NCBI GenBank assembly: GCA_030526715.1
Contig: JAUNCG010000001.1
Span: forward strand, 16,150 to 80,149
DNA: 64,000 nucleotides
Source of the DNA: Eubacteriales bacterium
GTDB taxonomy: Bacteria; Bacillota; Clostridia; Lachnospirales; Lachnospiraceae
Direction: 5' to 3'
This document shows, one piece after another, positions 57,477 through 64,000 of the stretch. A model generated the notes under the pieces. The model worked only from the letters and a program-made list of their open reading frames with translations. It did not search any database and was not told the origin of the DNA. The position numbers and the translations under genes were made by a program. How positions within the stretch are numbered: position 1 is the stretch's first letter; every line of letters starts with the position of its first letter.

Positions 57477-57502
57477 TCCCGTCTAATGGGACTATCTTTT
57501 TT
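57472..57502 (+). terminator. Terminator of the two-component operon
   Basis: Arms GATAGTCCC (57472-57480) and GGGACTATC (57488-57496), seven-base loop, then T-rich sequence. It overlaps the stop codons of both convergent genes. Confidence 0.88.
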
Positions 57503-58157
57503 CTACGATCTCTCCCTGTTTCTTATAGATACTGTCCGCCTTTACTACACCGCGAACACAGGATACCGGATAGATCTGGGCATTTCTGCCGATGACGGTT
57601 CCGGGATTCAGTACGGAATTGCATCCGACCTCGACATTGTCACCCAGCATGGCTCCGAACTTTTTCAATCCCGTGGCGATCTGCTCCTCACCGTCCTTTA
57701 CCACTACGAGTGTCTTGTCTGATTTTACATTAGAGGTGATACTGCCGGCTCCCATATGCGCGCGATATCCCAGAATGGAATCGCCTACATAATTGTAATG
57801 AGGTACCTGAACCTTATTAAACAAGACCACATTTTTCAATTCTGTAGAATTGCCTACCACAGCGCCCTCTCCTACAATGGCATTTCCACGGATGAATGCG
57901 CAGTGACGAACCTCCGCTTCCTTACCGATGATCGCCGGACCATTAATAAAAGCGGTCGGCGCAACCTTTGCAGACTTGGCTACCCAGACATTCTCTCCAC
58001 GTTTCTCATACTCGTTCTCATCCAGAGCTGCTCCCAGCTCCAGAATAAAGCTGCTGATCTTCGGAAGCACCTCCCATGGATACGTTGCTCCCGCAAAAAG
58101 CTCCTTCGCGATCGTCTCCTCCAATGTATAAAGATTACTGATTTTTGCTGTCTCCAT
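57492..58157 (-). CDS. Hexapeptide-repeat (left-handed beta-helix) transferase-like protein
   Basis: A 221-residue protein with hexapeptide repeats (about 60-205): WVAKSAKVAPTAFINGPAIIGKEAEVRHCAFIRGNAIVGEGAVVGNS and GDNVEVGCNSVLNPGTVIGRNAQIYP. It resembles the C-terminal acyltransferase/uridylyl half of GlmU-type proteins but lacks the pyrophosphorylase domain, and is often annotated as a UDP-N-acetylglucosamine pyrophosphorylase-like protein. The N-terminal 55 residues (YPWEVLPKISSFILELG) are characteristic of that clostridial group. Substrate unknown. Confidence 0.8.
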   Translation of the reverse strand: METAKISNLYTLEETIAKELFAGATYPWEVLPKISSFILELGAALDENEYEKRGENVWVAKSAKVAPTAFINGPAIIGKEAEVRHCAFIRGNAIVGEGAVVGNSTELKNVVLFNKVQVPHYNYVGDSILGYRAHMGAGSITSNVKSDKTLVVVKDGEEQIATGLKKFGAMLGDNVEVGCNSVLNPGTVIGRNAQIYPVSCVRGVVKADSIYKKQGEIVEKR

Positions 58158-58272: not shown

Positions 58273-60282
58273 TTACTTTTTCTTTGCATAACTTCCCCTG
58301 CTGCTTTTCGTAGACTGGTAATACTTCGCCGCCTCATCAAAAAAGCTGCGGAGTGCAAACTGCTGGTTCATATTCAATACCGCTTCTGTACGGCTGCGCA
58401 CAAAATGATTCAATTTTTCCATATATTCTTCCGGTGTGACACTTCCCTCTGCCACCAGAGTCAGCCCCTTCTCCCAGCTCGCCGTCAGCTCCGGATTCAG
58501 CAGGGATCTCACAGACACGCTCACCACATCGAAAATCATCTCTCCGAGAAGTGTCGGCGTCAGGATCTGCGTCTTCTTATTCAAAGCGATGTATTTATTC
58601 GCCACCAGCTTTTTCAGGATCTCCGCACGGGTGGCACTGGTGCCGATGCCGCTGCCCTTGATATGCTCTCTCAGCTCCTCATCCTCGATAAGCTGACCTG
58701 CATTCTCCATGGCAAGGATCATTGAACCGGAGTTGTAGCGCTTCGGCGGTGAAGTTTCCCCCTCCCGGATCTCAAGCGCCTCCACCGGCAGAACCATCCC
58801 TTTCTTCAATGCCGCCAGAGCCGTGGTCAGGGACTCGTCCATAGAATCTTCTCTGCTTCGCTTCACTCCCGCCACCTTGAGATAGCCCTCCTGCTCCAGC
58901 ACCTTAAAGGAGGAGAAAAACTTCTCCTTATCCATCTTTGTCACCAGATTGATCTTTCGATAGACCGCCGGCGGATAAAAGATACTCAGAAAACGTCTGG
59001 AGATCAGCTCATACACCTTCCCTGCGCGCTCGGGCAGACTGCGCAGAGCAGCCAGTCCCTGCCCGGTAGGCACGATGGCATAGTGATCCGTGATCTGCTT
59101 ATCGTTCACATAGCGGGATGCAGACAATTTCTTGTAAGCGCCCTGCTGCAAGACCTCCTCCGCAAATCCTCCCACCGAAGGAACCCCGCACAGTCCCCGG
59201 ATATTTCGCGTAATCTCCTTCGCTACTGCCGTGGACAGGACACGGGCATCCGTTCTGGGATAGGTCACCAGCTTCTTCTCATAAAGCTCCTGCACGATAC
59301 GAAGCGTCTCGTCCGGACTGATCTTAAACAATCTGGAGCAGTCGTTCTGAAGCTCCGCAAGATTATACAGCAGCGGAGGATTCTTATTCTCCTTCTTCCG
59401 GTCGATGCTCTCCACCGTCGCCGTCATCGGCTGCGTCTGCGAAAGCTTTTCGATCAGTCCCTGCGCATCCTTTTTCTCCTTGAATCCGTTTTCCTTATAG
59501 AGCTTCGGAGACTGATACCAGACGGAGCCCTCTACGGCACGAAACTCTCCTTCCGTTCGGGAGCCCCCCAGATCCAGCTGATTTACCACACGGTAAAAGG
59601 GCGTCTTCACAAACTGCCGGATCTCACGTTCTCTTCTCACGATCATCCCCAGCACACAGGTCATGACCCGCCCCACAGATATCACTGTATATTTTGTATT
59701 CAGATAATTCGAAATGGAGTTTCCATACTTCAAAGACAGTAGTCTGGAAAAATTGATCCCCATCAGATAATCCTCTTTGGCTCGCAGATATGCCGCGTCA
59801 GAGAGATGATCATATTCCTCCAGATCCTTCGCCTCCCGGATCCCTCTGAGGATCTCCTCCTCCGTCTGAGAATCGATCCACACTCGTCGGCGGTGCTTCG
59901 CCTTCTTATCCACACCGGCCTGCTGCTCCACAAGACGATAAATATACTCTCCCTCCCGTCCCGAGTCGGTACAGACATAGATATTCTCCACATCCGCACG
60001 GTTCAAAAGACCGCTCACGATCTTGAACTGCTTGGAAACCTGAGGTATTACCTCGTATAAATAGTTCTCCGGCAAAAAAGGAAGTGTCGCCAGACTCCAC
60101 TTCTTATATTTTTCATCATAGACCTCCGGATAGCTCATGGTCACCAGATGCCCTACGCACCAAGTAATCACCGCATTCTCACCTTCAAGATATCCGTCGC
60201 GTCTTGCTGTATTCACTTTTAATGCTTTGGCAAATTCCTGTGCCACACTCGGTTTTTCCGCAATAAATAAAGATTTTGCCAT
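58273..60282 (-). CDS. topB: DNA topoisomerase III (type IA)
   Basis: Relaxes and decatenates DNA through a transient phosphotyrosine. The 669-residue protein has an N-terminal TOPRIM domain (KSLFIAEKPSVAQEFAKAL; CTDSGREGEYI in place of the usual DxDREGE) and the active-site Tyr in LVTYPRTDARVLS (about 334). No C-terminal zinc fingers. Lachnospiraceae often carry such an enzyme on the chromosome or on integrative elements; no other element genes are seen here. Confidence 0.92.
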   Translation of the reverse strand: MAKSLFIAEKPSVAQEFAKALKVNTARRDGYLEGENAVITWCVGHLVTMSYPEVYDEKYKKWSLATLPFLPENYLYEVIPQVSKQFKIVSGLLNRADVENIYVCTDSGREGEYIYRLVEQQAGVDKKAKHRRRVWIDSQTEEEILRGIREAKDLEEYDHLSDAAYLRAKEDYLMGINFSRLLSLKYGNSISNYLNTKYTVISVGRVMTCVLGMIVRREREIRQFVKTPFYRVVNQLDLGGSRTEGEFRAVEGSVWYQSPKLYKENGFKEKKDAQGLIEKLSQTQPMTATVESIDRKKENKNPPLLYNLAELQNDCSRLFKISPDETLRIVQELYEKKLVTYPRTDARVLSTAVAKEITRNIRGLCGVPSVGGFAEEVLQQGAYKKLSASRYVNDKQITDHYAIVPTGQGLAALRSLPERAGKVYELISRRFLSIFYPPAVYRKINLVTKMDKEKFFSSFKVLEQEGYLKVAGVKRSREDSMDESLTTALAALKKGMVLPVEALEIREGETSPPKRYNSGSMILAMENAGQLIEDEELREHIKGSGIGTSATRAEILKKLVANKYIALNKKTQILTPTLLGEMIFDVVSVSVRSLLNPELTASWEKGLTLVAEGSVTPEEYMEKLNHFVRSRTEAVLNMNQQFALRSFFDEAAKYYQSTKSSRGSYAKKK

Positions 60283-60311: not shown

Positions 60312-61031
60312 CTATTCCGGGATGTTCCGCTCATAAAAGCTATGTCTTGCAAGAAATAAAAACAGAATTCCTATCAGCACGCATCCAAAAGAGCCGATAT
60401 ACAGCATCATGGCTCTCTTCGCAAACCATTCCTGCTGAAACAAAGAAAACGGCGTCAGATACTGTACGATAAAAAGCCCCGGAAACAAATAGTAGATCAG
60501 ATAGATCCCATAAAATACACACGGAACCACCACTGCTGCCCGTATATAACGATAGGTCCGCTTCGCAATGCAGGAAATACAGAAGCAATAACCACCCACA
60601 GCCACCTGCAGGGAAAAAGATCCAAGATTCAACAGAACATAAGTACTTCTCTTCCATACTCCCGTCAACCGATATACGCCGGTCAGGCATCCGAAGAGCG
60701 TCGAGACGGTCAACAGCAGCATTGCATTGATCAGGACAAATACCAGCTTCGTCCGAAAAATCCTCTGCGGGCTCATCTGTGTAGATAAGAGCAGCTCCAT
60801 AGTTCCGTCATCCTCCCGTGCCATCATGACCCGGTAAGCAAGCAGCATCATCATTCCTGCCGGAATCACAACTACAGGCAGCGTGTCCCAGAACATGTCC
60901 GAGATCTCGATGAGCCGCATATGGCAGATTCCCATGGCAATGAGGAGACTGAAAAGCTGTATCATATATGTGATCACGATCGCTCTGCGATTGATCATAA
61001 AATCCTGTTTTAATAACGCTATACTAAGCAT
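60312..61031 (-). CDS. ABC transporter permease-like membrane protein
   Basis: A 239-residue protein with six hydrophobic segments, starting LSIALLKQDFMINRRAIVITYMIQLFSLLIAMGICHM. It fits the ABC-2 type permease pattern (YVLLNLGSFSLQVAVGGYCFCISCI). The start is the ATG at 61031 with GGAGG eight bases upstream, which overlaps the ATPase gene by eight bases. Its substrate is unknown. Confidence 0.75.
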   Translation of the reverse strand: MLSIALLKQDFMINRRAIVITYMIQLFSLLIAMGICHMRLIEISDMFWDTLPVVVIPAGMMMLLAYRVMMAREDDGTMELLLSTQMSPQRIFRTKLVFVLINAMLLLTVSTLFGCLTGVYRLTGVWKRSTYVLLNLGSFSLQVAVGGYCFCISCIAKRTYRYIRAAVVVPCVFYGIYLIYYLFPGLFIVQYLTPFSLFQQEWFAKRAMMLYIGSFGCVLIGILFLFLARHSFYERNIPE

Positions 61032-61908
61032 GAAGTCTTCCTCCGTAGATATGGACAAACGTCTCCTCCAGCGAAAGCGGAATCGGCTCCATACCTGTCA
61101 CCTGATATTTAGAAAGCGCACGCAGCAACGGGAGCAGGGCTCCCTGTACCGTCACGATCACGTTACGGTCTTTCATACTTTTTATTTCAAAATGCTCCTT
61201 TGAGAACTGCATCGCCATATGAGCGCTGGAAAAACGGATCAGATAGTTCCGATACATGTTCTCCCGGAGATTCTCAATATCTCCCAGATACGCCACATTC
61301 CCATGATCTAACAGCGCCACCCTGTCACAGGTAAGATCCACGCAATCCACAGATTCCGTGGTCAGTATGATCATATGATTCTTCTCGCGTTCCTCAAGGA
61401 TCAGATCCGTCAGTATGCTGCGCTCCTTCGGATCCAAATGCTGAAACGGATGATCCAGCAGTATCACCTGAGGGCTGTGCAGCAGCGCCGCAATGATACC
61501 TGCCTTCTTCAGATCTGCCTCCCGCATTTTTCCCAAACGCTCATCGAGCTCCACATCCAGCCGCAGAGCCAGTTCAAACATTCTCTCCAGATTACGAATA
61601 CCGCGCATACCGGCCAGAGAACGCAGAAACTGCCGCGCGGTCAGTGTCGGCGGCAATGTCACGTTCTGGGGCAGATATCCGATCATCTTATGAAGGGAAA
61701 GACCGGCCTCGGCACAGTCTTTCCCGTTGATCGCACATCTTCCCTTAGACGGTCCCTCAAATCCCATAAGCATACGAAGCGCGGTTGTTTTGCCGGAGCC
61801 TGTCGGCCCCACCAGTCCGAACACTTCTCCTTCCTCCACCTCAAAGGAAAAATCGAAAATTCCCGCTCCTTTGCCATAGCTCTTTGTCAGATTCTTAAAC
61901 CGTATCAT
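61024..61908 (-). CDS. ABC transporter ATP-binding protein with degenerate catalytic motifs
   Basis: A 294-residue ATPase subunit with an intact Walker A (GPTGSGKTT, about 33-41) and Q-loop (GYLPQNV). Three other motifs depart from the consensus: the signature is KMREADLKK where LSxGM is expected; Walker B reads VILLDHP with His in place of the catalytic Glu; and the switch region reads LTTESVD with Glu in place of His. The protein may bind ATP but hydrolyse it poorly. The C-terminal about 70 residues are an extension as in export-type ATPases. Pairs with the permease at 60312. Confidence 0.82.
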   Translation of the reverse strand: MIRFKNLTKSYGKGAGIFDFSFEVEEGEVFGLVGPTGSGKTTALRMLMGFEGPSKGRCAINGKDCAEAGLSLHKMIGYLPQNVTLPPTLTARQFLRSLAGMRGIRNLERMFELALRLDVELDERLGKMREADLKKAGIIAALLHSPQVILLDHPFQHLDPKERSILTDLILEEREKNHMIILTTESVDCVDLTCDRVALLDHGNVAYLGDIENLRENMYRNYLIRFSSAHMAMQFSKEHFEIKSMKDRNVIVTVQGALLPLLRALSKYQVTGMEPIPLSLEETFVHIYGGRLHA

Positions 61909-61911
61909 AAA

Positions 61912-63003
61912 TTACTGTTCCTTTTTCTGAATATATCCGAGGGACTTCAGGCTCTCCGCACAGAGTACCGCACCACCCGCAGCGCCGCGCACGGTATTGT
62001 GGGACAGACCCACAAACTTGAAATCATATACGGTATCCTCGCGAAGACGACCGATGGAAACCCCCATACCATGTTCATAATCTACATCTGCCTTAACCTG
62101 TGGACGATTGTCCTCTTCCATATAACGGATAAAATGCTCCGGTGCGCTCGGAAGCTTCTGCTCCTGCGGATATCCGGAGAAGTTCACCAGCTTTTCGATC
62201 AGCTGTTCCTTGGTCGGATGCTTACGGAACTTCACAAACACGGCTGCGGTATGTCCGTTCAGCACCGGAACACGCAGACACTGACAGGTGATCACCGGCT
62301 CAGCGGCTTTCACGATCACACCATCCTTCACTTCACCGAGGATGCGCAGCGGCTCCTGCTCTGACTTCTCCTCCTCGCCTCCGATATACGGAATCACATT
62401 CTCTACCATCTCCGGCCAATCCTTGAAGGTCTTGCCCGCACCGGAAATTGCCTGATATGTGGTAGCAACCACCTCATACGGCTCAAACTCTCTCCATGCG
62501 GCAAGCGCCGGAGCATAACTCTGAATAGAGCAGTTCGGTTTTACGGCAATAAATCCACGGGTGGTTCCCAAACGCTTCTTCTGAGACTCGATCACCTCAA
62601 AATGCTTCAGGTTGATCTCCGGGATCACCATCGGGACATCCGGTGTCCAGCGATGAGCACTGTTGTTGGAAACCACAGGAGTCTCGGTCTTTGCATAAGC
62701 CTCCTCAATGGCCTTGATCTCATCCTTAGACATATCTACTGCGGAGAATACAAAGTCTACACTTGCAGCCACCTTCTCCACCTCATTGACATTCATTACT
62801 ACAATTTTCTTCACTGCCTCCGGCATCGGTGTCGTCATCTTCCACCGCTCGCCTACGGCTTCCTCATAGGTCTTTCCTGCGCTTCTCGGGCTCGCTGCAA
62901 GCGTTACCACTTCAAACCATGGATGATTCTCCAGCAGAGAAATAAATCTCTGACCCACCATACCGGTTGCACCAAGAATTCCGACTCTCAATTTTTCGCT
63001 CAT
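61912..63003 (-). CDS. asd: Aspartate-semialdehyde dehydrogenase
   Basis: Reduces aspartyl phosphate to the semialdehyde for Lys, Met, Thr and DAP synthesis. The 363-residue enzyme has the NADP motif GILGATGMVGQRF, the catalytic Cys in AVKPNCSIQSYAP and the catalytic His region in CQCLRVPVLNGHTAAVFV. It is of the archaeal/fungal-like Asd subgroup common in Clostridia. It lies three bases before the ABC ATPase gene. The DAP link agrees with the DNPR-type MurE. Confidence 0.95.
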   Translation of the reverse strand: MSEKLRVGILGATGMVGQRFISLLENHPWFEVVTLAASPRSAGKTYEEAVGERWKMTTPMPEAVKKIVVMNVNEVEKVAASVDFVFSAVDMSKDEIKAIEEAYAKTETPVVSNNSAHRWTPDVPMVIPEINLKHFEVIESQKKRLGTTRGFIAVKPNCSIQSYAPALAAWREFEPYEVVATTYQAISGAGKTFKDWPEMVENVIPYIGGEEEKSEQEPLRILGEVKDGVIVKAAEPVITCQCLRVPVLNGHTAAVFVKFRKHPTKEQLIEKLVNFSGYPQEQKLPSAPEHFIRYMEEDNRPQVKADVDYEHGMGVSIGRLREDTVYDFKFVGLSHNTVRGAAGGAVLCAESLKSLGYIQKKEQ

Positions 63004-63076: not shown

Positions 63077-64000
63077 TCATTCTGACAGATATGCTTTTCC
63101 TGCCTCAATACTTCTGCGCATGGATGCCTCGGAAGGCGCTCCGATCGTCTGTCGCTTCTCTACGCAGGTCTTCAGGCTCACCGCATCATAGATATCCGCC
63201 TCAAAGACCGGACTGATCGCTTTCAGCTCCTCAAGACTCAGCTCATGGATCGCCTTGTTCTTCTCAATACAGTACAGCACCAGTCTCCCGATGATCCCAT
63301 GGGCATCCCGGAACGGAACTCCGTGATTTACCAGATAATCCGCCGCGTCTGTTGCATTCGTGAAGCCGTTCATAGCGCTCTCCTCCATCACGTCCTTACG
63401 GAAACGCATGGTAGCGATCATACCGTTAAACAAAGCAACGCAGCCCTTCACCGTATCGATCGCGTCAAAGGTCAGTTCCTTGTCCTCCTGCATATCCTTG
63501 TTATATGCCAGAGGCAGTCCCTTCATTGTCGTCAGGATCGAGATCAGCGCGCCGTAGACTCTTCCGGTCTTTCCTCTTACCAGCTCCGCAATATCCGGAT
63601 TTTTCTTCTGCGGCATGATACTGCTTCCGGTACTGTATGCATCATCGATCTCCACAAAACGATATTCATTCGTATTCCAGATGATGATCTCCTCACAAAA
63701 CCTCGACAAATGCATCATCACCGTGGAAAGCGCCGACAACAGCTCGATCACATAATCGCGATCCGATACCGAATCCATACTGTTCATGGTCGGTCCGTCA
63801 AAATGAAGCAGCTGTGCCGTATATTCACGATCCAGCGGATAGGTTGTTCCCGCTAACGCACCACTGCCCAGCGGACAGTAATTCATTCTCTTTTTTATAT
63901 CAGCCAGACGAAGCCTGTCTCTTCGGAACATCTCAAAATATGCGCCGAGATGATGCGCCAAGGTGATGGGCTGCGCCTTCTGCAAATGTGTAAAGCCCGG
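63077..64000 (-). CDS. argH: Argininosuccinate lyase, 5' end outside window
   Basis: Cleaves argininosuccinate to arginine and fumarate. The 307 codons seen are the C-terminal two thirds; the reading frame stays open to the window edge, where [17 protein letters not shown] is the family's substrate-binding segment. The catalytic signature [12 protein letters not shown] is present, followed by the C-terminal lid. The start lies beyond position 64000. Confidence 0.95.

Follow-up and report, generated by a model that had tools for sequence, protein, structure and literature searches.

The prevailing picture of ABC transporters is that of machines which hydrolyse ATP, and the degenerate sites known among them coexist with an intact one. 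The heterodimeric exporters TAP, TM287/288 and BmrCD have their Walker B defects in one chain and their signature defects in the other, which leaves one site intact; in the sulphonylurea receptors, too, a consensus site is present alongside a degenerate one. Exchange of the catalytic Glu for Gln is the laboratory way of trapping ABC proteins in their ATP-bound state. As set out in a section of PMC4652930, the signature of one NBD joins Walker A, Walker B and the H-loop of its partner to form each site of an ABC dimer; the same section attributes to CFTR a consensus site alongside a degenerate one and states that CTS, a transporter of plants, loses its function upon a mutation creating two degenerate sites. 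In one portion of PMC7756269 CFTR is described as a channel and the sulphonylurea receptors as channel regulators, while known degenerate sites are characterised as not diverged among orthologues, which is taken to point to a newly acquired role. Judged from its listings, the open-licence literature on degenerate or inactive ABC NBDs deals mostly with heterodimeric or eukaryotic cases, and no description of a bacterial single-NBD module with both sites degenerate was found in it. Among the papers listed as naming Marvinbryantia together with ABC transporters, nothing was found on the ATPase gene of the window, as we call the whole stretch of 64,000 nucleotides.

For both subunits of the ATPase/permease pair found in this window (Table 1) the best solved-structure matches lead to NosF and NosY of the type V ABC system NosDFY in which, as predicted here, an NBD with a C-terminal domain is combined with a separate 6-TM permease. 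Wild-type NosF presumably has the catalytic Glu, as structure 7o17 is titled NosDFY E154Q. The ATPase of the window, in contrast, has lost catalytic Glu, switch His and signature, and no nosD-like gene was recognised by eye among its neighbours (queH, argH, asd, topB and the acyltransferase gene).

Table 1. Features of the ATPase/permease locus. Positions are those of the window; the names of asd, argH, topB and the acyltransferase-like gene are presumed ones, read from sequence.
Feature	Position	Strand	Remark
acyltransferase-like hexapeptide-repeat protein	57492..58157	(-)	conserved, after topB
topB (type IA topoisomerase)	58273..60282	(-)	conserved neighbour downstream
predicted 6-TM ABC-2 (type V) permease, 239 aa	60312..61031	(-)	start is the conserved ATG at 61031
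degenerate ABC ATPase, NBD + C-terminal domain, 294 aa	61024..61908	(-)	ATG start, stop present
Glu185 at switch (H-loop) His position	61354..61356	(-)	
His153 at catalytic Glu position, after Walker B Asp152	61450..61452	(-)	
signature position MREAD, residues 128-132	61513..61527	(-)	Gly131 gone in 16/16; relatives MSKGM/T
Walker A GPTGSGKTT, residues 34-42	61783..61809	(-)	Lys40 in 16/16 clade members
asd (aspartate-semialdehyde dehydrogenase)	61912..63003	(-)	3 nt upstream of ATPase; conserved neighbourhood
argH (argininosuccinate lyase)	63077..64000	(-)	runs past window end; conserved neighbour

The ATPase carries a true ABC_tran domain, as the PF00005 profile scores 74.8 bits at a curated cut-off of 25. 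Its model (mean pLDDT 87) comprises the NBD and the C-terminal domain and matches best 4yer, an unnamed T. maritima ATPase, and NosF, with 7o14 and 7o0y among the structures matched. The model of the permease is of moderate quality only (mean pLDDT 68) and features an elbow helix and six TM helices as well as a short helix between TM2 and TM3. Within this coupling-type helix D75, T77, M78 and L82 are invariant in six of six sequences. The fold search was led by NosY and PmtCD, albeit with E values of 0.005 to 0.08 and none below 0.001, so that the match to the structures 7o0y_E, 7o0z and 7znq (E 0.005) is a weak one, and the Pfam profile ABC2_membrane_2 remains, with 14 bits, below its cut-off of 27.2. 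As listed, the permease reading frame begins at TTG 61058; the start conserved among its relatives is the ATG given in Table 1, so that permease and ATPase genes share 8 nt. All five relatives fetched show this overlap as well. In the preliminary description the ATPase had been considered coupled to its permease.

That description had further claimed three altered motifs next to an intact Walker A, and all four read as claimed. The Walker B region (LLDHP, residues 150-154) retains its Asp, the switch region reads TTESVD (residues 183-188), and the signature region KMREADLK (residues 127-134) stands against KMSKGMKQ or KMSKGTKQ in relatives. An individual mutation, a sequencing error or chance can be rejected as the origin of these changes. 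Eight genomes of the genus were sampled and the ATPase was reached in seven of them, namely the own genome and six others, the contig of the eighth (G001) ending inside the permease before the ATPase. The six congeneric ATPases share 65-76% identity with that of the window at unchanged gene order, and catalytic Glu, switch His and signature Gly are missing from every one of the seven. At the catalytic Glu position the seven genes encode H, A, N, D, D, N and N, at the switch His position E, D, E, S, D, D and N, and at the signature Gly position A, A, A, E, A, A and A. The triple motif loss thus characterises the genus, but what stands in place of the lost residues differs from member to member. 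Positions 153 and 185 rank within the 9% most variable of the ATPase inside the genus, in contrast to G34, G39, K40, D152 and P154, which are invariant. We therefore reject the idea that His153 and Glu185 have become conserved residues of catalysis; that this particular His and this Glu matter finds no support. Canonical orthologues, which would have pointed to an individual mutation or a sequencing error, do not occur in the genus, and at this locus only a sister genus has canonical members.

The variability of several catalytic positions, together with the stepwise build-up of losses described below, would be in line with the slow decay of a dispensable pump. Such a decay appears very unlikely to us since none of the seven genus ATPase genes contains an internal stop and dN/dS is low in all pairs for which a finite value was obtained. 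In addition, 133 of the 294 positions are invariant in the genus, most densely so within residues 1-33 (26 of 33). The sole unsaturated pair, G003/G006 (dS 0.65, pS 0.43), yields dN/dS ratios of 0.061 (ATPase) and 0.20 (permease). For the other genus pairs the ATPase ratios amount to 0.08-0.12, yet they are rough as dS is saturated or nearly so, and the same limitation applies to the canonical sister ATPases with ratios of 0.07-0.14. Permease values in the genus (0.18-0.26, one of six pairs being without finite dS) lie above those of the ATPase. The earlier statement that the gene is not decaying is thus well founded, given an intact gene in all seven reachable genus genomes, the overlap with the permease and dN/dS of 0.06-0.12 in the genus. 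Judged from the sequences, the ATPase and its putative nucleotide-binding core are kept, while the residues predicted to serve hydrolysis and dimer closure are not.

Searching a family sample of 397 genomes with a permease profile revealed a clear score group of ten genomes (278-354 bits; next 241), and neighbour searches assigned all ten to a topB-linked pair. With congeners and additional genomes of the genera concerned included, 20 loci were read altogether, comprising the seven of the window's genus, nine further degenerate ones from five other genera (G170 and G428; G209; G376 and G034; G136, G426 and G427; G234) and four canonical ones from one further genus (G286, G429, G430 and G431). 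The pair sits between asd and topB in six genera, as holds for all 16 degenerate loci. In the seventh, the canonical sister genus, it is located beside topB, not beside asd. The canonical members share the architecture of the window's pair, as do other canonical ABC-2 pairs of the family, but retain MS[KR]G[TM], LDEP and the switch His. ATPase start codons of the G136/G426/G427 genus and of G431 are provisional. The canonical ATPase of G429 (L124, 6326-7027) measures only 233 aa and lacks most of the C-terminal domain.

In a tree built without the motif columns (residues 34-42, 126-136, 148-161 and 181-188) the 20 syntenic loci fall on one side of a branch with support of 93/90, the four canonical members beside the 16 degenerate ones, and these 16 in turn fall on one side of a branch supported by 100/98. 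Since the clade persists in the tree rebuilt without these columns, we reject the notion that it is an artefact of the degenerate motifs. Inside the degenerate clade the branching order is moderately supported, with values of 85-88 at several forks, and it should be noted that L053 (G234) forms a long branch and that rows L009 and L069 are the same gene. Outside the locus, the 31 distinct non-syntenic relatives are all canonical at the signature Ser and Gly and at the Glu and His positions; the underlying list contains 34 rows, three of which repeat a locus (L009/L069, L010/L063 and L016/L070).

The fewest losses required on this tree are one for the signature Gly, four for the signature Ser, two for the catalytic Glu and three for the switch His, as opposed to none for Walker A Lys and Walker B Asp. 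An LSGGQ-type signature Gly is absent from the ATPase of the window, as from all 16 clade members, and none of the 16 has lost Lys40 or Gly39 of Walker A or the Asp of Walker B. Glu and His are each retained in six of them. The signature is lost while both Glu and His are retained in G170, G428 and G376; G209, G034 and G234 have lost His and retained Glu, and in the window's genus signature, Glu and His are all lost. Walker A Gly37 is missing from two of the seven genus members and three of the 16 clade members. In all three genomes of one genus (L052, L054 and L122 of G426, G136 and G427, respectively) a natural Glu-to-Gln exchange is found next to a retained switch His.

The interpretation we favour, with a probability of roughly one half, is that the pair constitutes a type V (ABC-2, NosFY/PmtCD-like) module whose NBD would be an ATP-binding, non-hydrolysing subunit holding or gating the permease. 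As the sequences show, the nearest relatives at the locus are canonical, and the signature Gly was lost once, Glu and His repeatedly; purifying selection has meanwhile preserved Lys40 of Walker A, the Asp of Walker B and the remainder of the ATPase, along with the permease. The ATPase should accordingly still bind (Mg)ATP, although binding may be weakened in some members given the losses of Gly37, and should still dock on the permease. As there is one NBD gene only, both sites of the homodimer would be identical and devoid of signature Gly, Glu and His. A normal ATP sandwich would then be impossible for want of the signature, and hydrolysis at a useful rate for want of Glu and His, at either site. 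Against this reading, some residual ATPase activity via another residue may persist, considering the Asp at the Glu site in two of seven genus members and the Glu kept in six of 16 clade members. Because both sites are degenerate and no partner would rescue them, and by analogy with CTS as treated in the cited section of PMC4652930, the module would presumably no longer pump by hydrolysis; its NBD may instead hold or gate the permease, either as a structural element or in a way that depends on ATP occupancy. The role of an ATP sensor or regulator considered in the preliminary description is possible and comes close to this reading. An ABC fold that serves gating or regulation instead of pumping is also encountered in CFTR and the sulphonylurea receptors, which, however, are eukaryotic and possess a consensus site.

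Retention of Walker A and Walker B Asp, together with that of Glu and His in six of 16 members each, might also be expected of a slow pump using an unusual route of hydrolysis or driven by ATP binding and release alone, and the title of PMC13040083 has ATP binding alone powering ABC translocation. However, the signature Gly is gone in all 16 members and neither catalytic position has a fixed acid or base in the window's genus, which makes a slow pump quite unlikely in our view.

The main rival of an ATP-binding holder or gate is a scaffold acting independently of ATP, since the degenerate site diverges among orthologues here, unlike the known degenerate sites in the cited portion of PMC7756269. 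The NBD fold would then only stabilise a permease which has become a receptor, a channel or another membrane protein. Such a subunit, to which nucleotide has become irrelevant, would also be in line with the free drift of catalytic and signature positions, and with a permease that is kept while its post-TM1 segment has lost about 29 columns in the genus. Even so, we consider such a scaffold unlikely, as every one of the 16 members has, despite deep divergence, retained Walker A Lys, Gly39 and Walker B Asp, the Lys and the Asp without a single change needed on the tree.

The cited portion of PMC7756269 presents degenerate sites as commonplace among both heterodimeric and full-length ABC exporters. 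The ATPase of the window might, by the same token, pair with a canonical ABC ATPase encoded elsewhere in the genome, and the preliminary description had named cooperation with another ATPase as an option. The catalytic Glu lost and the altered H-loop and signature do resemble the situation in TAP, TM287/288 and BmrCD. Here, in contrast, both defects reside in one chain, and a normal ATPase partner would rescue no complete site because Walker B and signature defects share that chain. The operon contains no second ATPase gene. Of five other ABC-2-like ATPase loci inspected in the own genome, four are accompanied by an adjacent multi-TM protein, the fifth ending at a contig edge. We thus rate such a partnership as very unlikely.

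The own genome offers a further comparison. Among its 99 PF00005 places, 90 were fetched in addition to the window's own; the eight left out are the weakest, scoring below 35 bits, six of them under the curated cut-off. After dropping partial and duplicate alignments from 138 hits overall, 78 complete distinct NBDs were counted (77 others and the own one), of which the ATPase of the window alone lacks signature Ser and Gly, Glu and His together. Glu is missing from three others, L140, L215 and L171. From their motif patterns we take L140 to be the second NBD of a duplicated importer, L215 to be of the same type and L171 to be a probable NBD of a heterodimeric exporter. By sequence, all three look like members of systems with a second NBD at hand. 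L140 and L215 (contigs C38 and C14), as second importer-type NBDs, lack not only Glu and His but also the Lys of Walker A and the Asp of Walker B, probably reflecting the usual asymmetry of duplicated importers. L171 (G000:C93:82200-83500), situated just beyond the window end near queH, is an ABC exporter whose Walker B reads LDDST and whose switch reads AQR; it probably forms the degenerate half of a heterodimer. The partial rows L137 and L163 contain LDDS as well.

If the NBD indeed binds ATP without hydrolysing it, an all-degenerate single-NBD module under selection would imply that ABC architecture can persist for ATP binding alone. The further proposition of a bacterial ABC lineage without any hydrolysis, with a homodimer whose two sites are both dead yet still bind ATP and which acts as an ATP-occupancy switch or gate, is one we put forward as plausible but tentative. 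The 16 members would then represent a natural series leading from loss of the signature only via Glu-to-Gln 'ATP traps' to the loss of signature, Glu and His. With such a graded series at one locus, the order and the effect of each loss become testable with natural proteins.

Regarding the chromosomal context, the gap between asd and the ATPase amounts to 0-79 nt in the window's genus as opposed to 140-264 nt in eight of the other nine degenerate members and 2259 nt in the ninth. In the lineage with the most motif losses, the pair was therefore probably incorporated into the asd transcript. Scans of the locus for promoters (7 found, 6.5 expected) and terminators (7 found, 4.3 expected) gave numbers near chance, and no Rfam element was matched across 17 kb around it.

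Finally, the permease genes show some variation of their own. An apparent stop in the permease of G002 was dismissed, as it merely marks the end of the matched reading frame and the gene reads through 241 aa. The permease alignment reveals that the roughly 29 columns after TM1 missing from the window's genus are present in most other members. The permease of G209 exhibits a separate, different gap close to this segment, which must therefore have been shortened at least twice.
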